Of a stretch of DNA of 46,916 nucleotides, positions 2,098 through 38,871 are shown in pieces. The translations under genes were made by a program, and so were the position numbers. A model generated the notes under the pieces. That model saw nothing but the letters and a program-made list of their open reading frames with translations, ran no database searches and was not told the origin of the DNA. The stretch is from a virus. The stretch spans positions 1 to 46,916 of the IMG/VR virus record IMGVR_UViG_3300030106_003861; one strand, given 5' to 3'. Numbering within the stretch: the stretch's first letter is position 1; each line of letters opens with the position of its first letter.

Positions 2098-2958
2098 ATG
2101 ACGACAAAAAAGAAACCGTGGGACATCCTCAGCAAAATTGACTGCGCTGATAAAGTTGAGAACAAAAACGGGTTGACATACCTGTCATGGGCATGGGCGT
2201 GGGGCATTCTCAAGACGCATTTCCCTGACGCTTCTTTCGAGAAACACTATTTCGATGGATTACCGTATGCGGCAGACCCCAATGGTTACGCCTATGTCAA
2301 GGTTAGCGTAACTGTTGAGGGTGCAGAGGTCACCGAGACGATGCCTGTTCTCGACTATCGGAACAAAGCAGTCAAAAACCCAGATGCTTTTTCGGTCAAC
2401 TCTTCACTTCAAAGATGCCTAACCAAGGCGATTTCGTATCATGGCTTAGGCCACTACATCTACGCTGGGGAAGATTTGCCGCCAAACGACGGCGAGGAAG
2501 CACAGGAAAAAGCACCCAAAGAGGTGGCGAAGAAGCCAAAGGTGCAGAAAGAAAAGCCTCAGGTTAAAATTAACCCAGCCAATGTTAAATTAGAGGAGTT
2601 CCGCTCTCAATTCCTAGACCATCACGCAGATATTGTTGAGATGGACGAGGATGCGAAGCTTGCTGATATAACAGAAAGTGACAGCTTCGATGTGGTGCTC
2701 AAGGTGTTTGAGACATTCATGCCGCGCATCCACGATAAGTGGGGAGCGGGACCGGAAGAAGGTTACAGCGGCGAAGATATGTACGAGAGCAACGATGATT
2801 GCGTAAAGGCAATTGAAAGGTTCTACCTAAAGAACAAAAAGGTAGTTTCAATGCTGTCCTCGGATGCGCCATCTTACCATAAGCAGGTGATGGGTATATT
2901 CAAGGCAGCTAAAGGAGCAGCCCAGAAGGGTGAGCAGTATGAAGGAGTAGCAGCGTAA
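2098..2958 (+). CDS. Single-strand annealing protein, DUF1071/Sak3 type
   Basis: The N-terminal 140 residues match the DUF1071 (Sak3) family: YLSWAWAWGILK near residue 28, then FSVNSSLQRCLTKAISYHGLGHYIYAGEDLP at about 100-130. Members are phage recombinases that anneal complementary single strands. The C-terminal half is charged and poorly conserved; residues 138-160 form a Lys/Glu/Pro linker. It is preceded by an AAGGTG site 8 bases before ATG, and its stop TAA overlaps the ATG of the SSB-like gene (TAATG). Together with the nuclease at 977 this makes a Red-like exonuclease/annealing pair. Inside the gene at 2562-2575 is an exact copy of the GGTTAAAATTAACC palindrome found elsewhere in the window. 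Confidence 0.72.
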   Translation: MTTKKKPWDILSKIDCADKVENKNGLTYLSWAWAWGILKTHFPDASFEKHYFDGLPYAADPNGYAYVKVSVTVEGAEVTETMPVLDYRNKAVKNPDAFSVNSSLQRCLTKAISYHGLGHYIYAGEDLPPNDGEEAQEKAPKEVAKKPKVQKEKPQVKINPANVKLEEFRSQFLDHHADIVEMDEDAKLADITESDSFDVVLKVFETFMPRIHDKWGAGPEEGYSGEDMYESNDDCVKAIERFYLKNKKVVSMLSSDAPSYHKQVMGIFKAAKGAAQKGEQYEGVAA

Positions 2959-4966: not shown

Positions 4967-5099
4967 CTCTCTTATCTCCCTTTTTTAACTTCCCAGAATT
5001 GACCATCTTACGCCTCGCTTTGTTGCGAGAATTCCTGTTTGCCTTTTGCTTCGGCTTAGAATGATAATTTTTATATTCTTTCTTGTAATTTCTAGCCAT
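4878..5099 (-). CDS. Small basic HNH-like protein
   Basis: The 73-residue protein starts MARNYKKEYKNYHSK, is very rich in Lys, Arg and Asn, and carries DVHHRDGNPRNNSSKNL, which resembles the core of HNH homing-type nucleases (xHHxDxNxxNN..NL). The usual flanking cysteine pairs are missing, so it may be a degenerate or minimal DNA-binding version. Three in-frame ATGs lie at 5111, 5105 and 5099; GGAG six bases before 5099 decides the start. It overlaps the end of the hydroxylase gene by 8 bp. Confidence 0.62.
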   Translation of the reverse strand: MARNYKKEYKNYHSKPKQKANRNSRNKARRKMVNSGKLKKGDKRDVHHRDGNPRNNSSKNLRARSKSKNRSRR

Positions 5100-5796
5100 T
5101 GCCATCTCCATAAAATATTTTTTGCCATTCCTTGTGGCGTTTTAAAGGTATGTTAACGTAGGAAAACAATCTTGCCATCCTAATCACACACCAGTTTAGC
5201 ACATTTATTGGAAACGGCAGAGGTTTTACGATATCAATGAATAAAACAGACCTGATCTCATCAGTGTCATTCACAGCAGTATGCTCATATGTATCGTCAA
5301 ACAATACGCATTTACCCTCCTCCCAGTGCAACTTCTTGCCATTCACCATCAAATAACACTTCTTCTCATTCGGTATATCTAGAGCCAGATGAAGTCTCAG
5401 AACGCCCGAATACGGGCCTGCGTGTGGATTTAAAACTTTGCGAGGCCCTAACACTGAAACATACGCACTAATAATGCTTGAGTGGTCAGATATAATCTTA
5501 ACGGTCTCAGGCATTTGCTCACAGTTCTTGGGGAACCATATATTGGCCCCCTTCAAGAAAAATAAACGCCACTTATCATCATTGGATATTTCTATTTGAT
5601 GGGGCGATATCTCCTGAAATGGAGCAAAGTCGTCGTATCTCTTGATTAGCTCTTTATACTCAGCCTGTATCACCGAGAAACTATTCTCTAAATCAGACGA
5701 TCCTGAGAACAGGGAGGCAGGATATATCTCTTGCGTACCCCACTTGTTATATTTTCTGTAAAGGGGTTGTAAAATTTTTTCTACAAAAAGAGCCAC
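5092..5796 (-). CDS. Aspartyl/asparaginyl beta-hydroxylase-like 2OG-Fe(II) dioxygenase (LpxO/AspH family)
   Basis: The 234-residue protein has the family core: NPHAGPYSG with H125, the R134-L-H136 pair, W158-EEG, FDDTYEH with H172, and R182 for 2-oxoglutarate binding. The HxG rather than HxD form at 125-127 is like AspH. Spacing and the hydrophobic/basic C-terminus resemble bacterial LpxO, which hydroxylates lipid A acyl chains. Substrate cannot be decided from sequence: a virion or host protein, or host lipid A. The start is a GTG without a good ribosome site; a GGTTAAAATTAACC palindrome fills the gap before it. It lies directly after the lysis cassette. Confidence 0.8.
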   Translation of the reverse strand: MALFVEKILQPLYRKYNKWGTQEIYPASLFSGSSDLENSFSVIQAEYKELIKRYDDFAPFQEISPHQIEISNDDKWRLFFLKGANIWFPKNCEQMPETVKIISDHSSIISAYVSVLGPRKVLNPHAGPYSGVLRLHLALDIPNEKKCYLMVNGKKLHWEEGKCVLFDDTYEHTAVNDTDEIRSVLFIDIVKPLPFPINVLNWCVIRMARLFSYVNIPLKRHKEWQKIFYGDGNG

Positions 5797-7448: not shown

Positions 7449-7844
7449 CTAATAAGACCAAATATTGGGGCGCGGGCTGTCCTCTTTTACATCTATATGC
7501 AGAAACCTAGCGTTGCCTTTCTGGTTAACGCCGATACCCTTCACCCGGTCATCTGCACAGATTAACTTTAACAGATCATACGCATCTTTTCCAGATACGC
7601 CGACATCACACGCCATGCCAGTTGAATGTACACCCGGTGAACTTTTTCTCTCTTCGATGGGATGAAGTGGACATCTATAGCCAGATGTTATTCGCATAGA
7701 CTGTCCGTACTCATCTCTAATAGATTGCATAACATCCATTAACTGCTCACTGATAACTAAGTCATTAGCACCACATTGTGCAGTGACACAATGCTGACAA
7801 CGAAACTCGTCAGGGGAGAAGTTAGGGTATTTTGACCAATCCAC
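7449..7844 (-). CDS. Endolysin: peptidase M15 (D-Ala-D-Ala carboxypeptidase-like)
   Basis: The 131-residue protein has the M15A zinc site: SGYRCPLHP, then GVHSTGMACD with H73 and D80, then FLHIDV with H116. Enzymes of this type cleave peptide cross-links of peptidoglycan. No signal peptide is seen, so release depends on the holin. Two N-terminal CxxC-like cysteine pairs (C16, C19, C24) are common in phage members. The gene overlaps the end of the giant ejection-protein gene by one base and opens the lysis cassette. Confidence 0.85.
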   Translation of the reverse strand: MDWSKYPNFSPDEFRCQHCVTAQCGANDLVISEQLMDVMQSIRDEYGQSMRITSGYRCPLHPIEERKSSPGVHSTGMACDVGVSGKDAYDLLKLICADDRVKGIGVNQKGNARFLHIDVKEDSPRPNIWSY

Positions 7845-10800
7845 TAATCTGTTCTCCTCATATACTCTGATTTACGTTCTCCGTAATAAGAAACTATCTC
7901 ATTCATCATTTCTTGGATTTTAATGAACATTTCTTTCTTTTCACTGGCTGGCATAATCGGATCGATATCAACTTGTCTTCTGAGTTTACGCAACTCAGAC
8001 AGTTCCTTTGATATTATCTTTACATCACCAGCAACATCCAAAAGACCTTCGTTTCTTTTCGCTCGCTCATACCAATCATCTGCGCGGCCTTGCTTGTCTA
8101 AACTAGCAAGCGTCTTTGTAAATAGATCTACTTCATTGGCAAGCTGATAAAAGGCTTCGACAGGCCCGGTCCCTGCTCTCTCTTGTAAGAACCTGCTAAG
8201 AACAGGATATTGATCTGGCCTTTTATCGGCAGGCGCAGGAAGGCCTAGATAGTTACGCATGACGCCGTCAGATGCGAGTAGAGCATACGATCCAACAGTG
8301 CCTAGATACCCCCTAACTAGGTGATCAATTTTTCTAGGCTGAAAATCTATGTTCATATCAGCAAGATGTTGAGATGCAGCTAATGCCAAAGGCGAGGCGG
8401 TTGTTGGATCAGCCGCAAAACCTTCTGTCCTGCCCTGAAAATATGGCACGATAGGTTTGCCGGTATAGAAATCATAATTAGTTATTGTTTCAAACAAAGG
8501 CATCATGGCTTGAGGGAACTGAACGGCAAACGTACCCGTTACATGGCGCGTTATAGACCTCAAGTTATCTGGTTGGTCCGTTTTATCCGCTAAACTTCTT
8601 ATTATCCGCTCAGGTATAACTTTTCCAATAACACCAAGCTCGAAAGGTATCGGGGCTTTAAATGCAGAAACAAAGTCTGAATCAATCCCAAGCCAGCGAG
8701 GGCTAATGATCCAGTTCATATCCTTGTCTGTTTCGTTTGCGTTATAATACCACGGGTTCTCTTCTTCATCCTCTGACATAAGCCAGAACGAATACATTGC
8801 ATTCACAGCAACGAAAGTGAGGAACCTATACATAAACCTCTTTTTTCGCTCCTGTTGTGTCATGGTGGTCTCGGTGCCAACCTTGCCGTGATAGCCTCTA
8901 TACATAACATCTAGGCCCTGAATTCTAGCGTTCAGGAACGGTATCATAGCAGTTAATGCGTTAACGACTGGATTGGCACCGCGACGACTGAAGTTAATCA
9001 CCTCTAAAGCCTCAAACATAGCAGCGGTTGGGTTCTGTGTGGTTTCTAAAACCCTGTTATACACAGCAACTCTAGTGGCTGTATCGGATGCCATTGTCAA
9101 CTTGTCGAGAGTGTCCCACCATTTAGCTGGATTAAGAGGGCTTCTGCGTTGTTGTTTAAAAATCTTCTCTGCGCGTTTATCTCTTTGATTATCATAACCT
9201 CCAACAAAACCAACAGCCTCTAACGCTTCAGCTTCTGCGCTCCCCATAATGGCCTTAGCCAAGCCTACAGCCGTACCGGGACCGGGAACTGTTGTAATTC
9301 CAGAACTCATCCATGATGACATAGAATCCCTCAGTAAGTTAGCGAGCATAAATCCGGGTTCTTTTGTTATAAGCGCCCTAAGCACTTTTGCCGGTGTGGT
9401 TAGTATGTCGAAGAAGCCCAGCGAGAACTCCCCACTTGATTTCATTGCATTGAGGAGGTACGGATCATCCACGTTGTAATAAACAGTTTTCCCGTCAACT
9501 CTTATGCCCACCGTGTCAGCGCTGGGAGAAGCTGGAGCGCGTCCCAATCGACGCGCCATATCCAGCTTATGTAAATCTCTAACCGCTCTGGAAGCGGCCA
9601 CGTTTGCGAGCGAGGCGTGAACAGCCGCATCTAAATTACGAAGTATGTTGTCAAGAGGGCTTTCGATCCTTTGACTTGTTTTTACCACCCGTACCTTCGC
9701 GCCCTTATTCATCTTGCGAAGAATGTCGGCTCGCGCTTTTGCGCTATCGTAAGTTGTGTAAGCTTTTTCAGTTGCGGTGTTATTAACCAAAATCATGAAC
9801 GCTGGCTTGCCACCTTTCAACTCTTTAGGGGCTGGTATGCCATACATATTTTCAAAGACTTTGTTGTTAGGATCGTTAGATACTTGATCTAAATCTCCAG
9901 CCTTATCTAAATCTGGATTAATAACATCATACAATGAGCCAGCATCATCATACGCCTGACGGTAAAACGGCAGATAATCGGCGTTCTGCGTCCACAGTTC
10001 AGCGGCCTCTGCGCTGATAACGCCCGTATCGCGCATCATATTTACTAAAGATTTGTTCCACAATTGATACTCACGATACGCTCTCTCAACAGCCGGATTT
10101 TTAACCCCTGCTTGTATGGCAGTTTCTATTTCAGCATCTGTAAACAGATTCTCTCTGCCCTCCTGCTTCAAGCGTTGTGCGCGGCGACCAGCAGCGTATA
10201 GCTGGAAGGTAGCCAGCATTTGATTTTGATCAAGCTCTGCAAATATCTCTGCTAAACCTTTTAGGTCTTTTGGGTCATTGTATTCTAGTACAATCCTCTC
10301 TCCGGTTGTTGCATCAACATAGTCATCAATCCTCGTCTCTCTCTGCAATCTCTCGAAAGCTTCCTCGTACTGTCGTTTAGCAGCAGGGTCAGGGCTATCG
10401 TTGATCAGCTTCTCGTTCAACGCAGTGATGACACCACCGCTTCTAATCAACGGGCCTTTTGTAATAGCGGCGGCTGACACCCCCTTTGATCTCTCAAGTT
10501 GAGAAAATGCTGTCCAAGCATGAGATTCGACAGACATCTTCTGTATCTCATCAGCCTTCCCAGCCATGTATCTACTACTACCGTACTGATCTTGAAAAGC
10601 TATTTTCATACGCAACCAGATCGAACGATCTCGCGGATCATTCATCTTCATGCTGCCCATAATCTTCTCAAAGAAAGTCTCGTTCTTTTCCTCGTTAAAC
10701 TTTTCTTTGACAAGACGCTTTTGATCTTGCGTCAGACCGTTGTCTTGACGCCTCAAGCTAAACTTGCTTTTTAGGCTGAGTATTTCTCGCTCTACTTTTC

Positions 10801-13800
10801 TTGCTTCTGGCGGGTTGATGGCGTCATTCACACCCCTATCTACAGCCTTCTGCACTTCTAGCGTTCTGTCAGGATCAACAGATATAGCAGGTTGCGCTAT
10901 TGGAATATTTTTAACTTTATCTGACGGGCCAATGAATGATGTCACTAGTTGGGCGGTCTGACGGCCAGCAAATTTTGGGTTCTCTCTTACGAATCTGGGG
11001 CTAAGAACATCGTAGTATACAGGCTCGAATACAAAGACAGCAGGATAGCCGAAGTCTTCACTCTTCCACTCAAGCCTGTATCGACTATTGCCTGTGGGGC
11101 CGCTTTGCTTCTTCACATCGAAGCCGCCAGCCTTAGGATTATTGCGGAAAGGCCAGTACGCTTTGAGGGCTGCCCTAGCTAAGTCCTCTACGTTACCGTA
11201 GGCTCCGTATGTATGGACGGGAACTTTCGCTTGATGTTTCTCGTAATGCGCTGCGCCAAAGCCGACTGATCTTTCTGCTTTTGCCGGGTCTTCTATTACT
11301 CTATCAAAACCGTTTGGAACAAAAACATCGGCAGACTGCCCCTTGCCATCTGGGTCAGTGATGACAAGACGTGGGTAATAGCCTGCGTCATCTTCTGGAG
11401 ACAACGGGCGTCCAACGAAAGCTGAAGTTGGAGCGCCAATTGCCTTTAGGTATCTATTTAGATTACCCCGCTGGGTCTCTATGTTTCTTGCGAGGGAGAA
11501 CTTCTGTCTATCTTGAGACCTGATTTCTCTAAAGCGTTGAGCAGCCTCGTCCGAACTTCTTCTCGCGTCATCTCTGGCGTTATCGCTGTAAGTTCCAGAT
11601 TGTTTAAGTTGTTCGATTCCGTCTGGCGTTCTGATTTCATTGAATGTCCTCAAGTCAAATATTGCGATCTGATCTGCACTATTGGCAATATAGAGCGCAG
11701 TGTCAAGTTCATTGTAAATGTTGACTGCGTCAAGATAATAAAGATTATCGTCCTTATTGAGCCAACCGCCAGCGTAGACCTTATTGCCTGTTGCTTGTGA
11801 TACGTCAAACAGCATATCGGCATATTCGTTAACGGTATTTTCATTAAGCTCGGACGCCTTAATTGTCATCTCCGCGTCTTTAATAGGAGCAACAGCATAA
11901 CCCTCAGGGGCAGGCTGACCATCTACGGTGACGGTAAACCCTTCAGGGTTAGATTTGATGAAGTTTAAGAGCGTTTCGTTTGGCCTTGCGAGGGAGAACT
12001 TCGTTCGCGCTCCATCAGCTTCGCTAGGTTGTCTGTCATCTTCCCTATCTCTTCCCGCGACATCGACGGCGTCTCCTCTGCCCCCTCTCCCCACGGTCTG
12101 TAAAACATTTCCTTTGGCATCTAATTCAACTCCTTCATTTATGATTTTTTTAAACGCTTGAGCATAATCAATGTTCAAGTTTTCTTTTGTGCGAACACCC
12201 AGCTTCTTGTAGAGGTTCTTCTCTGGATACCAAAGAATAGCCTGAAGATCGGCGTTTGTTACATCATACCCGCTGTCCACCAACTTTTTACGGGTTTTAT
12301 CTATTATACGACGAACAGCGTTGCGAAAGTTGCCCCCAGAAGGCGCATCCTGAGGTTTGTTTTGTTGCGTTACAATAGCCTCAGCAGCTTTGGCCCACTC
12401 TGGCTTATTATACTCTTCCCGCTCATAAAGAGCGCGTATTTCAGGCGTCCGAAACAAACGATCATGCTCTCGACGCAATTCATCAGCTATCTCAACGAGA
12501 GCATCAACATCTAAAGTAGACTTAGCGTCAAACACAGATGATATTAAGAAATTATCCCCACGCTTCTCAGGATCGGCTTGGAGACCTTTTATAAGGCGAT
12601 CAGCTTGTGGGCCTATCAAATCCGGCTTACCAATCAATCGACCAGTTAGACGGCCAATGGTTCGCATCAACCACATATCGATAGTTACTGGCTCAAAGTT
12701 CCCGTTTAAGTTTTGATAAAAACCCTGCCCAATCTTTGGCCCTAAAAGGAAAGACCCATAAACAACAGTGTCTACGTTTTCTCCGCTGGGTGGCTTATAG
12801 CCTGCGTCTTTCAGCCCCTTAACCGTAAACTGTTTATCGAATAGCTCCTTAATACCTTGTGGCCCCATTTTATCAAGAAGATCATTGAGCATAATAAAGT
12901 TGTCGCGCATCGAAGGCCCGTGTTTGCCCTTTGCATATTCAGGGAAACGACCATTCTCTCGGTAATAGTCATACACCTCTGTAGTGTAGACAGAGTTCTC
13001 CATAACAGGCGTGTTTTGACTGGTTACAGAAAGAGCCGCTAGGAACGCAAACCGTGCATCGGGATCGGTCTTAATTTCAGGATACAACTCAGCCGCAACA
13101 TCAACAGCCTCACCAACACTCTCACTGTACCAGTTAGCTGCGTTGCCAGTCTTTCTCAGGGCAGCAAGCGCTTCACCAGCAAGAACATCAGATATCAAGC
13201 CATCATAACTTGTATCGTTCTCGATAAGGACGCCCTCTTTACCAATTTTATTGCCAAGAACTCTTTTGGCCCTAGAGTTGAGAAGACGAGAGACGTAGCC
13301 CACAGTATTTCCCGTGCGCTCCGCGAAATCGTCGTTGTAAAGAATGTCAAGAATAGACAAGCGGCGGGGCCTGCTACGGGGGCCAACACGCTTCCCAGCG
13401 ACCTCAGCGTCATCGTGCTCAGAGTTTTTAGCAGAGAAGACTGGGTCTTTTGGGTCTACAGGTTTACGGGCTAATGAATACTTACCCTCTATAGTGGCTT
13501 TTTGCCTATCTAGAGCGCTTTCCTCATCTCTGGACAAACGCCTCCTTATAAAGCGAGAAAGCATCTCACGCGAAACATCAGACGCCCTGACACGCCTTCT
13601 AAAAGTGCCCTCTTGGATTGTGTCAGCGCCTACTATGCGACGAGCAACTCTGTCTAGCTGAACAGGATACAAGGAATACTTGACGCTCTCAGGGTCAGCC
13701 ACCGCATCTGCCGGGGCATCTGGAGCCTGAACGCCAACATCTCTAGGTGGGGCATCTGGGGGTTGATCACCAACAGCGTCAGGTGGAGCGTCTGGAGCCT

Positions 13801-16792
13801 GTAATCCGACTTCTACGTCCCTTTGTCTAGCGCCTAGAGGAGAACGCAGATTATCAAACATTTGCTCGGCAGATATAATGTCTGCATTTGTGAAGCCGTT
13901 TGATAGGGATTTAAAGAAATCAACAATACGGTTGAACAAGCTTCTGGGCTTGCCTGTCAACTTCACATTACCATCTGCCCAATACCTAAACGCATCAGCA
14001 ATAGATTCTTCGACTAAAAGCTCTTCTGTCGGGGGATTTCCAAACGTCTCTTCATAGTATTTTGTGTACCTACCTGCGATATCTTCGTAGAATGTTAAAG
14101 CGTCACCCTTGCGCTTATTATTTTTTGCATACTTCTCTAGAATGGCAAAGTCGGCATCGGTAAGAACACCAAGTGCTCTAAGGGCGTGTATAACTTCATG
14201 ATTAAGAACACCCTTTAGGTTATTTTTAACCTCAGTCGTTGTTTTCGCGCCTATATTAGCTAAGTCTAAGGCAAGAGATATTACAACCTTACCGTCTACG
14301 GGGTCAGCAGCGGCACCCTCGCGCCCCTCACCCAAAGAATCAACCAGCTTAACCTGTATATCCTCCCCAATCTTCATCCCCTTGGGCAGTATTTTTTGGA
14401 ACCTCTTTAACTCCTCACCTATGGACTGATTAATATCGTCCATTCTGAGTTGAGCGTCTGTCTTGACAGTTGAGTTTTCTATGCGATTTTTAAAGTCCCG
14501 ACTTGCTTCGGGTATTGACCTTGTATCACCGGGCGCTCTGTCACGCGGAATTTGTATGCCGGGACCAAGAGTGAAGTCAGCAAGGGTTTCTCTCCTTCTT
14601 GCCTCTTCCGCTTCTTGCCTTCTAGCCTCACCCTCTATTTGCTCACCGCGCCTAAGTGGACTATCTAGATCACGGGCCTCTGCATCATATACAGAGCGGC
14701 TCATCCACCTATTCTTTCTAGTGGGATGCTCTATAAGATCACCACGATCTACAGCAGAATTGATAATAGACTCGGTTGGAGCGCCACGCTTCAGGTCCAA
14801 GGATTTATTAATGTCAGACTTTAGAATGCCATTTTGGCCCTTACGTTTTGCCAGAGAAACAACGGCAGCATATTGGGTGCCAGAAAACTCTGGCTTCTTA
14901 ATCACAGGCAGACGCTGAGGCCCATCACCCGGAAGCGCTGGCATCTGTTCAATCGTTTCATACAGATAACCTAGCTGACCCGGCGATACGCTTGGGCTAT
15001 CGATGCGAGCGCTGCCTATCAAACGCTGTGCAAAGCGCTCAAAGCCAGCATCCTCAACCATAATATTCTTTTGTTCAGCAAGGGATAGGACATCATCAGG
15101 CGTTACCTCAAGAGAGGATGACGGGGCTACCTGAGATATAATCTCTTCAGAGACGCCAGCTTCCGCTAAATCACCCGGCGTTAAGAGATCGTCCGGGCTA
15201 AATGTGCGTTGACCAGTTTGTACGCGCCTTGCGTTTAATTGGGTAACCGTGTCACCGGGCAAGTCCGATACAGGTATACTGTCCGTAACCTGTGTCTTGC
15301 GAGCGGCGTCTAACAAAGCTCCCGTTGAAACATTGGCCGAATCAGGTCCGTAACCCGCACCCTTGATTGCTTCGGCTGCTAAACGGTTGGTCTCTGCCCT
15401 GTCTTGTGTCTCAAGAAGATCATTGACCCCTAAATTAATACCGTCTCTAAATTCAGCAGCCTGTTGAGTGGTTGCGAAATAAGGCGAAACTTTGACGCCC
15501 TGTTTTGATTGAACGAAAGAACCCTTGTTGGTGGTGCTAACTTCATAAGCATCAGGTGTGCCAAGCTCATCAGCCGCCACAATTGCGCCACGATTGAACG
15601 ACAAAGGAAGATCACCCGCGAAATCAGATAGCGTCTGCTCAACAAGAGGCGCAACATCCTCGCCCTCATTGATGAGTGTATCGCTGGCTTCACTCAAATC
15701 CTCCAGAAGAAGCGTGGGCTTAGGAGGTTCCGGCGCTGGTAGCGCCAACGGCAAAGCATCTGCTTGTCCAGCAGGGCCAAGTTCTCTAACTTCCTCTTCT
15801 CTTTGCGCCGCTACCTGAAGCTTTTCTGCTTCTTGTCTTTCTTCTTCTTGTTGTTGAATTCTTCTACGATTGCGTAGACCCGGAACCATAAGCTCTAAGC
15901 CACCTTGGAATATAGCGCCTGCGCTGGCACCATACCCAAAATCAGCCATAGCTGATTCGCCAACCTCTAAATTAGGATTGTACAATCCTTTTTCTGTTAA
16001 ATCCTGAAGATAGCCAGCAAACGCTTCCTGCGTTCCCTCACCAATACCTACTGACGCTATCCTTCGCGGCCTTGTTTTAAACAAAATATTAGCGGCATCG
16101 CCCAAGATTTTGTTTCTGGTCTCTGAGGGTACTGATTTGGGTATTCCCTTGGATAATATTTTTCCCACCATCCTAACAGGGGCGAGTTCACTCAAACCAA
16201 TTCCACCACCCAACAGTATAGCTTGTTTTAAATTTTCTTCAGCGGCAGGATACTTATTACCTTCCTTCTCATACAGATTAAGAATACGCTCTGCTTGATC
16301 TCCAGCGCCAGCGCCAACGGCTAATGCTGTTGTGCCGCCAGTCCCAACCACCCTTCCTGCTGCGCTTAATCCTCTAGCAGCCAGACCTGCCTGACCAAGG
16401 CCGGGAATAAAGAAGCTGGCAAATGACCCAAGGGCGTTACCAAGACCATATGCTTTGGTTCCCTCGTCGCCGCCAAAAAACTCCCTCAAACCTTTTTGAG
16501 ACTCCCTGCCCCATTGAACAAGCTCATTCTCAGATAGATCGTCGGATAAACCCAAAGAATAGCCAAGAGCGCCTACACCCTCAACTGCAAGGGCAGGCAA
16601 AGAAGTAACCCCGTAACCAGCGCCTCTAACAAGGTCTCCCAAGTCACCTACGTTATCGAAGAATCCCGGCTCTTCGGGGAAATCTTCTGGCTTGGCTAAA
16701 TTGTTTTTTATAGCCAGTTCTCTAAGTTGACTTTGGGTTGTGCCTTCTGGAACTCCCGTAATTACACGACCATTAGGAAGAGTTACGTCCAT
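7844..16792 (-). CDS. Giant (2982-residue) polyvalent internal virion/ejection protein
   Basis: The start MDVTLPNGRVITGVPEGTT is typical of virion-associated polyvalent proteins. Residues about 45-310 are Gly/Ala-rich with hydrophobic stretches that could insert in membranes. A winged-helix-like piece lies near 640-710. A zincin metallopeptidase domain has HEVIH (865-869) and a possible third ligand in EESIADAF (928-929). Residues about 1130-1400 resemble DUF7178 (SQNTPVMEN near 1258; GPKIGQGFYQNL and VTIDMWLMR near 1350-1385). From about 2020 an LPD38-like helical module follows (ADYLPFYR near 2271; NLLRDSMSSW). Five K(F/Y)SL motifs at 1038, 1104, 1598, 1764 and 2010 separate modules. It is presumably packed in the capsid and injected with DNA. 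I see no lytic transglycosylase motif. Confidence 0.8.
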   Translation of the reverse strand: MDVTLPNGRVITGVPEGTTQSQLRELAIKNNLAKPEDFPEEPGFFDNVGDLGDLVRGAGYGVTSLPALAVEGVGALGYSLGLSDDLSENELVQWGRESQKGLREFFGGDEGTKAYGLGNALGSFASFFIPGLGQAGLAARGLSAAGRVVGTGGTTALAVGAGAGDQAERILNLYEKEGNKYPAAEENLKQAILLGGGIGLSELAPVRMVGKILSKGIPKSVPSETRNKILGDAANILFKTRPRRIASVGIGEGTQEAFAGYLQDLTEKGLYNPNLEVGESAMADFGYGASAGAIFQGGLELMVPGLRNRRRIQQQEEERQEAEKLQVAAQREEEVRELGPAGQADALPLALPAPEPPKPTLLLEDLSEASDTLINEGEDVAPLVEQTLSDFAGDLPLSFNRGAIVAADELGTPDAYEVSTTNKGSFVQSKQGVKVSPYFATTQQAAEFRDGINLGVNDLLETQDRAETNRLAAEAIKGAGYGPDSANVSTGALLDAARKTQVTDSIPVSDLPGDTVTQLNARRVQTGQRTFSPDDLLTPGDLAEAGVSEEIISQVAPSSSLEVTPDDVLSLAEQKNIMVEDAGFERFAQRLIGSARIDSPSVSPGQLGYLYETIEQMPALPGDGPQRLPVIKKPEFSGTQYAAVVSLAKRKGQNGILKSDINKSLDLKRGAPTESIINSAVDRGDLIEHPTRKNRWMSRSVYDAEARDLDSPLRRGEQIEGEARRQEAEEARRRETLADFTLGPGIQIPRDRAPGDTRSIPEASRDFKNRIENSTVKTDAQLRMDDINQSIGEELKRFQKILPKGMKIGEDIQVKLVDSLGEGREGAAADPVDGKVVISLALDLANIGAKTTTEVKNNLKGVLNHEVIHALRALGVLTDADFAILEKYAKNNKRKGDALTFYEDIAGRYTKYYEETFGNPPTEELLVEESIADAFRYWADGNVKLTGKPRSLFNRIVDFFKSLSNGFTNADIISAEQMFDNLRSPLGARQRDVEVGLQAPDAPPDAVGDQPPDAPPRDVGVQAPDAPADAVADPESVKYSLYPVQLDRVARRIVGADTIQEGTFRRRVRASDVSREMLSRFIRRRLSRDEESALDRQKATIEGKYSLARKPVDPKDPVFSAKNSEHDDAEVAGKRVGPRSRPRRLSILDILYNDDFAERTGNTVGYVSRLLNSRAKRVLGNKIGKEGVLIENDTSYDGLISDVLAGEALAALRKTGNAANWYSESVGEAVDVAAELYPEIKTDPDARFAFLAALSVTSQNTPVMENSVYTTEVYDYYRENGRFPEYAKGKHGPSMRDNFIMLNDLLDKMGPQGIKELFDKQFTVKGLKDAGYKPPSGENVDTVVYGSFLLGPKIGQGFYQNLNGNFEPVTIDMWLMRTIGRLTGRLIGKPDLIGPQADRLIKGLQADPEKRGDNFLISSVFDAKSTLDVDALVEIADELRREHDRLFRTPEIRALYEREEYNKPEWAKAAEAIVTQQNKPQDAPSGGNFRNAVRRIIDKTRKKLVDSGYDVTNADLQAILWYPEKNLYKKLGVRTKENLNIDYAQAFKKIINEGVELDAKGNVLQTVGRGGRGDAVDVAGRDREDDRQPSEADGARTKFSLARPNETLLNFIKSNPEGFTVTVDGQPAPEGYAVAPIKDAEMTIKASELNENTVNEYADMLFDVSQATGNKVYAGGWLNKDDNLYYLDAVNIYNELDTALYIANSADQIAIFDLRTFNEIRTPDGIEQLKQSGTYSDNARDDARRSSDEAAQRFREIRSQDRQKFSLARNIETQRGNLNRYLKAIGAPTSAFVGRPLSPEDDAGYYPRLVITDPDGKGQSADVFVPNGFDRVIEDPAKAERSVGFGAAHYEKHQAKVPVHTYGAYGNVEDLARAALKAYWPFRNNPKAGGFDVKKQSGPTGNSRYRLEWKSEDFGYPAVFVFEPVYYDVLSPRFVRENPKFAGRQTAQLVTSFIGPSDKVKNIPIAQPAISVDPDRTLEVQKAVDRGVNDAINPPEARKVEREILSLKSKFSLRRQDNGLTQDQKRLVKEKFNEEKNETFFEKIMGSMKMNDPRDRSIWLRMKIAFQDQYGSSRYMAGKADEIQKMSVESHAWTAFSQLERSKGVSAAAITKGPLIRSGGVITALNEKLINDSPDPAAKRQYEEAFERLQRETRIDDYVDATTGERIVLEYNDPKDLKGLAEIFAELDQNQMLATFQLYAAGRRAQRLKQEGRENLFTDAEIETAIQAGVKNPAVERAYREYQLWNKSLVNMMRDTGVISAEAAELWTQNADYLPFYRQAYDDAGSLYDVINPDLDKAGDLDQVSNDPNNKVFENMYGIPAPKELKGGKPAFMILVNNTATEKAYTTYDSAKARADILRKMNKGAKVRVVKTSQRIESPLDNILRNLDAAVHASLANVAASRAVRDLHKLDMARRLGRAPASPSADTVGIRVDGKTVYYNVDDPYLLNAMKSSGEFSLGFFDILTTPAKVLRALITKEPGFMLANLLRDSMSSWMSSGITTVPGPGTAVGLAKAIMGSAEAEALEAVGFVGGYDNQRDKRAEKIFKQQRRSPLNPAKWWDTLDKLTMASDTATRVAVYNRVLETTQNPTAAMFEALEVINFSRRGANPVVNALTAMIPFLNARIQGLDVMYRGYHGKVGTETTMTQQERKKRFMYRFLTFVAVNAMYSFWLMSEDEEENPWYYNANETDKDMNWIISPRWLGIDSDFVSAFKAPIPFELGVIGKVIPERIIRSLADKTDQPDNLRSITRHVTGTFAVQFPQAMMPLFETITNYDFYTGKPIVPYFQGRTEGFAADPTTASPLALAASQHLADMNIDFQPRKIDHLVRGYLGTVGSYALLASDGVMRNYLGLPAPADKRPDQYPVLSRFLQERAGTGPVEAFYQLANEVDLFTKTLASLDKQGRADDWYERAKRNEGLLDVAGDVKIISKELSELRKLRRQVDIDPIMPASEKKEMFIKIQEMMNEIVSYYGERKSEYMRRTD

Positions 16793-37337: not shown

Positions 37338-38301
37338 TACTCATCTCCTTCACAAGCTGTGCCGCGTACTGTTGAGGCGATAACCCAAGTTTCTTGGCGA
37401 GAGAAACCTGAGTACTAGTTAACTCCACTTTGCGCGGCGTACCACCAGACCCCCTTTTGGACGGCGATACTACCGGGGTTCTTCGGGAAGTCGGAGCCTC
37501 ACTAGCTGGCTTTTTATCCTTCCCCAAGGTTTCAGAAAACTGCTTTTCTATAGCAGCATCTATATTCTCATAATAGCTTGGATTATTGCGCGGGTCTACC
37601 CCTTGTTTTACAAGTTTTTCATGAAGGCCCACGGCGAATCCTGTCATTTCTTCATATCCGGGTTGCTGGAACCAAGGATTGCGCTTTAACCAGTCAACTG
37701 CCATCGGATCAGGGGGAGGTATATTAGGTGCCTGTTGTTGAGCCTGAGGCTGTTGCTGAGGCGCAGCCTGTTGGTCAAACCCCTCGCCCTCAACTGCAAA
37801 TCTAGTTTTTTCAGCGTAAAGCCTACTCAAGTCCTCTTGAGCGCTTACAACCGAGTCTGTATCACCACTCTCGTAAGCATCCTTGTACCGGCGCTTCACA
37901 GCCTCTATTTCTGTGTCTGTTTTTGCAGCCACCTGATCATAGAGGAGACGCCTTAACTCAGAAGATTGATTCCGCAAGTTCTCATTTTGACTTTGTATGG
38001 ACTGAGCATAGTTTACTGCTTCTGCGTTTTCTCTTTGAAAACGCTCTTTTTCTCGTCTTTCCTCATTGTAATCATAGCGAAGCTTATTAATCCTTTTTTG
38101 GATACGCTTGCTAAACTGAGTTTCATCCAACTCCTCATCGTCGCCGTCAGCATCTTCAACGTCACCATCGGCCTGCTTAACTCGACCACGGTCTTCTTCG
38201 GGAGTATCATCTACGACACTAACCTCAAAGGCGTCGGGGTCAGGAACATCTTCTTCCTCAGTGACCTCTTCAGCCTCTTGTAAAGCTCCTTCTTCAATCA
38301 T
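37330..38301 (-). CDS. Capsid scaffolding protein
   Basis: The 323-residue protein has a strongly acidic N-terminus (EEVTEEEDVPDPDAFEVSVVDDTPEEDR), a long charged coiled coil (about 65-170: FSKRIQKRINKLRYDYNEERREKERFQ...), a Gln/Pro-rich middle (AAPQQQPQAQQQAP) and a basic C-terminal helix (SLAKKLGLSPQQYAAQLVKEM). This architecture and the place between portal and capsid are classic for scaffolds, which guide shell assembly through a C-terminal helix and then leave. It overlaps the GroES-like gene by 4 bp (ATGA). Confidence 0.78.
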   Translation of the reverse strand: MIEEGALQEAEEVTEEEDVPDPDAFEVSVVDDTPEEDRGRVKQADGDVEDADGDDEELDETQFSKRIQKRINKLRYDYNEERREKERFQRENAEAVNYAQSIQSQNENLRNQSSELRRLLYDQVAAKTDTEIEAVKRRYKDAYESGDTDSVVSAQEDLSRLYAEKTRFAVEGEGFDQQAAPQQQPQAQQQAPNIPPPDPMAVDWLKRNPWFQQPGYEEMTGFAVGLHEKLVKQGVDPRNNPSYYENIDAAIEKQFSETLGKDKKPASEAPTSRRTPVVSPSKRGSGGTPRKVELTSTQVSLAKKLGLSPQQYAAQLVKEMSNG

Positions 38302-38672
38302 ACCCTTTTTATCCCCCTTGGGTCTTCTACTACTGCCTCGACAGAATCGTCATTGATAATACGAAACTCTTTACCATGCACCTCTATCCTAGTGCCGCTA
38401 TAAGAGCGCATTACAATCCAATCGCCCTCTTTGCACCAAGGACCGCCGGGAAACCTTTCAATGTCAGAATAAGCATCGGGACCAACTTTCAATATTAAGC
38501 CCGTAATGCTGGCTTCCTCTTCTCGACGGCGAGTGTCTTCTGGCAATAAAACACCACCGTCAGTCTTCTCTTCTTTAGCGGGAATTGCTATTAGCAATTT
38601 ATAGCCCACGGGATCAGGCAGGGCTTTTGCCTTTCTTGCATCGTCCAATGGAACGACATTTTCTTCAGTCAT
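38298..38672 (-). CDS. GroES-like co-chaperonin
   Basis: The 124-residue protein has the Cpn10 barrel pattern: GYKLLIAIPAKEEKTDGGVLLPEDTRRREEEASITGLILKVGPDAYSD, then PGGPWCKEGDWIVMRSYSGTRIEVHGKEFRIINDDSVEAVV. The segment KEEKTDGGVLLPEDT fits the mobile-loop region that contacts GroEL, and ITGLILKVGPDA plus GDWIVM fit the GroES core. The likely role is helping host GroEL fold the capsid protein, as T4 gp31 does. The ATG at 38672 has AAGGAG 6 bases before it; an upstream start at 38708 lacks such support. It lies directly upstream of the scaffold gene. Confidence 0.72.
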   Translation of the reverse strand: MTEENVVPLDDARKAKALPDPVGYKLLIAIPAKEEKTDGGVLLPEDTRRREEEASITGLILKVGPDAYSDIERFPGGPWCKEGDWIVMRSYSGTRIEVHGKEFRIINDDSVEAVVEDPRGIKRV

Positions 38673-38871
38673 CTTCTTCTCCTTTACGCAAAGCTTCAAA
38701 AAGATCAATAAGTTCTCTTTCAGCTAATGCAAGACCTTGGATTACTCCTACCGCCTTGTTGTATTCTTCAAAGCTACTTGCACCACCAGTAGCTAAAAAG
38801 TCTGCCTTCTCATTCATATATTCTCTAAGGTTTTTTTGATATAACTCATAGATATTCTCTACTACAGCCAC
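38665..38871 (-). CDS. Small helical protein between portal and GroES-like genes
   Basis: The 68-residue helical protein NIYELYQKNLREYMNEKADFLATGGASSFEEYNKAVGVIQGLALAERELIDLFEAL has no recognised family. The start GTG is preceded by GAGGTGA, and the stop overlaps the GroES-like start by 8 bp. The helical hairpin style and position suggest a portal or head-assembly accessory. Confidence 0.58.
   Translation of the reverse strand: MAVVENIYELYQKNLREYMNEKADFLATGGASSFEEYNKAVGVIQGLALAERELIDLFEALRKGEEDD

Follow-up and report, generated by a model that had tools for sequence, protein, structure and literature searches.

A recurrent border motif between the modules downstream of a zincin-like domain in a giant phage polyvalent protein

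Whether polyvalent proteins are cut, where, and by which protease, has been an open question since their first description, with only a general zincin hypothesis so far. We address it at one gene that takes up 19% of the window (the whole 46.9-kb virus record analysed here) and runs for 2,982 codons without interruption. It had been described at first as a single large gene, with no strand given, and this holds, with the minus strand now added. Long relatives of the protein, at 81–92% identity, are present on several IMG/VR contigs, so we regard it as a maintained gene.

7844..16792, minus strand: giant polyvalent protein gene, 2,982 aa (open ORF; long IMG/VR relatives)

Gene order in the window is podovirus-like, with terminase, portal, major head protein, stabilization protein and ejection protein (phrog_4287) genes preceding the giant gene on the minus strand, so that it sits among virion and late genes. 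The earlier reading of its product as a phage polyvalent protein is backed by an LPD38 domain, a zincin-like module and this late-gene ejection cluster. Several unrelated domains share one polypeptide, which is mosaic among relatives, modules having been gained or reordered in L020, L033 and others. Elsewhere in the record, the gene directly after the giant gene encodes an M15-type peptidase, probably an endolysin (7449–7844, minus strand), and a GroES/Cpn10-like co-chaperonin gene lies amid the head genes (38298–38708, minus strand; Pfam E 1.9e-11). An aspartyl/asparaginyl beta-hydroxylase-like gene (5092–5796, minus strand; Pfam E 9.3e-42), an unusual phage cargo, and a gene for a Sak-type single-strand annealing protein (2098–2958, plus strand; Pfam E 4.5e-44) were also found.

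The N-terminal part of the protein contains two features, a leader and a small region that was visible in the AlphaFold prediction.

16679..16792, minus strand: N-terminal leader, residues 1–38 (matches N-termini of phage ejection/DNA-transfer proteins)
14669..14875, minus strand: small alpha/beta region, possibly winged-helix-like, residues ~640–708 (AlphaFold)

Residues 1–38 are 53–58% identical to the N-termini of phage ejection or DNA-transfer proteins (E 4e-7 to 2e-5), including the DNA-transfer protein of Vibrio phage PVA1 and a glucosaminidase protein of CBW1004C-Prop1; a protein of Vibrio phage 1.275.O, encoded just before the tailspike gene, also matches. In three close relatives (L002, L003 and L007) this leader is swapped for an unrelated, equally widespread one that matches giant or ejection-slot proteins of Ruegeria phage 45A6, Shewanella phage X14, several Vibrio phages and Pelagibacter phage HTVC106P. 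When the window was compared with L007, the leader stretch was unrelated (55% DNA identity) and the body of the upstream gene 93% identical; as the 300 bp before the start were also divergent and the next 200 codons just 70–75% identical, the leader swap forms part of a larger divergent patch. Because the N-terminal 30 residues of P1 DarB suffice for capsid targeting (PMC9024508), we propose both leader types, by analogy, as candidate virion-targeting leaders. Such swappable leaders are undescribed in the literature as far as we found, and suggest at least two alternative virion-targeting signals.

The first-pass annotation had the protein ejected together with the DNA, and at the level of sequence this is supported, the leader being that of annotated ejection and DNA-transfer proteins. 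Taken with LPD38, the gene position and the relatives, it indicates that the giant protein probably enters the host with the DNA. For the relative PTXU04, in which the giant protein is gene 25, the particle proteins identified are confined to gp7, gp10, gp11 and gp12, a result that neither shows nor excludes the presence of the gene 25 product in virions. The hydrophobic N-terminal segments proposed at first reading proved weak, the region being Gly/Ala-rich: 19-residue windows exceeded a Kyte–Doolittle mean of 1.3 only at residue 191 (1.37) and at residue 867 (1.41), the latter inside the zincin-like module. No transmembrane helix was evident by this measure, and a membrane-spanning N-terminus is not supported. 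For residues ~640–708, the predicted order of helices and strands was weak (pLDDT about 65–73).

The zincin-like module follows.

13778..14425, minus strand: zincin-like metallopeptidase module, residues ~790–1005 (conserved residues; weak zinc-peptidase matches)
14186–14200, minus strand: HEVIH, residue 865 (sequence)

Aligning nine divergent homologues revealed that the H, E and H of this motif, and a downstream E-E pair, are invariant. The aligned rows gave weak Pfam matches, mostly to zinc peptidases (BSP, M13, SprT and DUF5700). The AlphaFold prediction was confident for a helical core only (about residues 849–965) and not for the sheet, and a Foldseek search with the module returned no PDB fold match; PDB sequence and fold searches with parts of the giant protein likewise yielded nothing useful. 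Of the metallopeptidase first annotated here, the motif at 865 and its invariant residues stand, the label ‘zincin-like’ being supported by sequence and not by fold.

Downstream of the zincin-like module, we delimited the following.

12002..13471, minus strand: module m2, DUF7178-like, all-helical, residues 1108–1597 (IMG/VR relatives, AlphaFold, remote DUF7178 relation)
11504..11989, minus strand: module m3, residues 1602–1763 (shared with other polyvalent proteins; stand-alone form in phages)
10766..11491, minus strand: module m4, residues 1768–2009 (kept in relatives including L034, L035 and L161)
7847..10753, minus strand: C-terminal core, residues 2014–2982 (Pfam LPD38; phrog_9854, phrog_18222)
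8198–8755, minus strand: LPD38 (PF18857), residues 2680–2865 (Pfam E 1e-25, 91 bits, cut-off 27)

Module m2, with at least 556 IMG/VR relatives, is common to other viral polyvalent proteins and is predicted to be all-helical (pLDDT about 90). Its earlier description as DUF7178-like survives as a remote relation only. The Pfam scan of the whole protein gave no DUF7178 match in this region, and m2 alone scored 13.4 bits (E 0.076) against the Pfam cut-off of 27; the same slot in the relative L163 holds a distant m2 homologue with a true DUF7178 match (6e-12), to which m2 aligns by profile (hhalign 93%, E 2.7e-7). A GPKIG...TIDMW pattern had prompted consideration of m2 as an HhH-GPD DNA glycosylase, which we rejected: hhalign to EndoIII/MutY gave 0.1%, and there was neither a PF00730 match in the record nor a Foldseek match. 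Module m3 resembles stand-alone proteins of ~130 aa from Microbacterium, Salinibacter and Gordonia phages, and on this resemblance seems to be a free phage gene captured as a module, or the reverse. Module m4 had no match in Pfam or the phage collection. The idea of m4 as a PBECR RNase came from a module of L163 to which m4 shows no similarity, and was dropped, with no Pfam match at E 0.1.

The LPD38-like module noted at first is confirmed, and is the only domain that Pfam recognizes in a whole-protein scan. The whole protein matches 53 phage records, mostly through the C-terminal core, of which the last ~800 residues match giant proteins of Escherichia phages Pondi and PTXU04, Planktothrix phage Pag-Yong1 and Vibrio phage VvAW1.

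The most informative feature of the protein, missed at first reading, is a short motif repeated at the borders of these modules.

13670..13681, minus strand: border motif 1, KYSL, residue 1038
13472..13483, minus strand: border motif 2, KYSL(AR), residue 1104
11990..12001, minus strand: border motif 3, KFSL(AR), residue 1598
11492..11503, minus strand: border motif 4, KFSL(AR), residue 1764
10754..10765, minus strand: border motif 5, KFSL(RR), residue 2010

K[FY]SL, usually followed by [AR]R, occurs at these five positions and nowhere else in the protein; all five are downstream of the zincin-like module, and the motif joins all modules after it. Only 0.06 copies were expected, and five were reached in none of 20,000 shuffles of the protein. 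The copies use differing codons, with serine encoded by both TCN and AGY, and this diversity rules out a DNA recombination seam as the origin of the motif. K[FY]SL is conserved in L002–L007, L017, L028 and L033, and in L028 and L033 it separates the same modules as in the window protein. Where relatives have acquired or rearranged modules, the motif has gone with them: L033 has an additional ART-like module (ART read by eye) between two motif copies, and L020/L123 have the reversed order, m3 before m2, with K[FY]S[VI]AR preceding each. The motif is also kept in relatives whose linkers differ. As far as we found, a regular border motif of this kind is undescribed in the literature.

Beyond the window clade, we sampled 23 non-redundant proteins carrying the same zincin subfamily (<60% identity). 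The relaxed motif [KR][FY]S[LIV] was found 24 times in the parts following the zincin and not once in the parts preceding it, and shuffled post-zincin parts averaged 5.0 motifs, with 24 reached in 0 of 2,000 shuffles. The strongest permuted motif at this cut had 19 occurrences, mostly at one homologous C-terminal-domain site, while the flanks of the real motif were varied. At a 45% identity cut the excess was smaller (11 motifs versus 3.0 expected, with one permuted motif reaching 12), and some proteins of the zincin subfamily have no strict motif.

The motif sites coincide with the edges of homology. Homology begins just after the motif at 19 of the 24 sites (6.2 at random) and stops just before it at 17 (7.3 at random), with both seen at 13 (2.6 at random); none of 3,000 random draws was as high. 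The five sites of the window protein are too few to show this enrichment alone. The 44 motif sites examined collapse into 20 distinct junctions, of which 16 come from the 24 sites outside the clade, and outside the clade the motif precedes at least 14 unrelated downstream modules.

We also considered whether the motif marks DUF7178-like polyvalent proteins in general, and rejected this. In a sample of 43 non-redundant DUF7178-like proteins, the motif was no more frequent than its permutations once the window clade was set aside, so polyvalent proteins do not all share it. Motif counts in this sample were higher where the zincin subfamily was present (P = 0.003), an association that was only marginal without the window clade (P = 0.057).

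Our best reading is that the giant protein is a cargo or ejection protein of a podovirus-like marine phage; the ~38-residue leader that it shares with other ejection proteins would take it into the virion, and it would enter the host together with the DNA. Its internal zincin-like metallopeptidase is followed by a string of interchangeable modules, each opening with [KR][FY]S[LIV], and its own zincin may recognize and cleave this motif, which would free the modules either inside the capsid or, with greater likelihood, once the protein has been ejected. That the motif is the recognition or cleavage site of the built-in zincin is the best mechanism that we can offer, and we are about evenly divided on it. 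In its favour are the excess of the motif over chance, its position at module borders, its confinement to the post-zincin part, its occurrence at 20 distinct junctions and its acquisition along with new modules. Zincin autoprocessing of polyvalent proteins was proposed earlier (PMC5512222), and P1 DdrB and DarA are processed (PMC5512222; PMC12810830). Counting against self-cleavage are the packaging of the zincin-bearing N4 virion RNA polymerase (vRNAP) in unprocessed form (PMC5512222) and, from our comparisons, the missing fold match, the subfamily members that have no strict motif, the smaller excess at the 45% cut, the marginal link of zincin and motif outside the clade and the DUF7178-like sample.

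N4 vRNAP, being packaged intact, favours instead a docking or assembly tag, with the motif binding a common partner (a chaperone, a virion protein or the core of the giant protein itself) and the modules folding or packing separately within an uncut chain. Short, hydrophobic-basic and located at module starts, the motif has features that a binding peptide could have. No partner is known, however, and a docking tag would not predict confinement of the motif to the part after the protease; we consider this possible, with perhaps a quarter of our confidence. Cleavage by another protease, whether a host enzyme or one that matures the phage, is unlikely: in P1 it is the prohead protease Pro, not a zincin, that cuts DarA (PMC12810830), but our motifs lie solely after the zincin, and a scan of the window ORFs, in a record that may be incomplete, recognized no separate prohead protease. 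The head protein has weak matches to combined head/protease families. Least likely is that the motif has no function and survives by descent as a seam from module shuffling. Common descent does account for part of the copies in the window clade, and DUF7178-like polyvalent proteins do not generally carry the motif. Outside the clade, however, it precedes at least 14 unrelated modules, in excess over shuffles; relatives with differing linkers keep it; and the codons, which differ between copies, show that it is no conserved DNA seam.

Returning to cleavage by the built-in zincin, we suggest, somewhat more guardedly than for the site itself, a family of giant injected proteins with a generic, transferable border signal downstream of a metalloprotease, that is, a self-dicing polyprotein that would release in the host any module placed behind the signal. 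A defined motif at fixed positions makes the guess of cleavage directly assayable, and it gives an annotation rule by which giant phage proteins of this family can be split into modules.

The giant protein is ordinary in kind, that is, a phage polyvalent protein. Compared with LPD38-class polyvalent proteins (Iyer et al. 2017, PMC5512222), its module set is not described in the literature found, its zincin subfamily escapes recognition by Pfam and K[FY]SL is present at every post-zincin border, with no site motif in the text of PMC5512222. It resembles P1 DarB/DdrB, the DarB-like JC1 gp69 of Bcep22-like phages and the protein of Vibrio phage VvAW1 in being very large, theirs being virion-linked, and JC1 gp69 and VvAW1 have a C-terminal LPD38-type region in common with it. 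P1 DarB has an N-terminal capsid-targeting leader, to which the window leader may be alike in role. P1 DdrB is processed, and no cleavage of DarB is reported in the text consulted. In the window protein, Pfam recognizes neither a methylase-helicase nor any other antirestriction domain. N4 vRNAP is similarly an ejected protein, of ~3,500 residues, in which an HExxH zincin-like domain lies inside the chain and much of the C-terminal portion is helical, but the window protein has no RNA polymerase domain. With P22-type ejection proteins, represented by the Vibrio phage PVA1 DNA-transfer protein (661 aa), it shares the leader and the slot after other ejection genes, but beyond that leader it consists of unrelated cargo.

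Two further polyvalent proteins were observed among the records. A relative on L018 (1–12899) carries zincin, DUF7178-like, zeta-toxin-like kinase (Pfam 9.8e-16), m3 and ASCH-like modules, and its module borders read DQPLAS, not KFSL. On L010 (7259–16636, plus strand; PQ492659, Limnohabitans phage DC33), a 3,125-aa polyvalent protein has LPD22 and ART-PolyVal domains; PQ492659 is filed under Inoviridae yet is 39 kb long, and its taxonomy line looks wrong.
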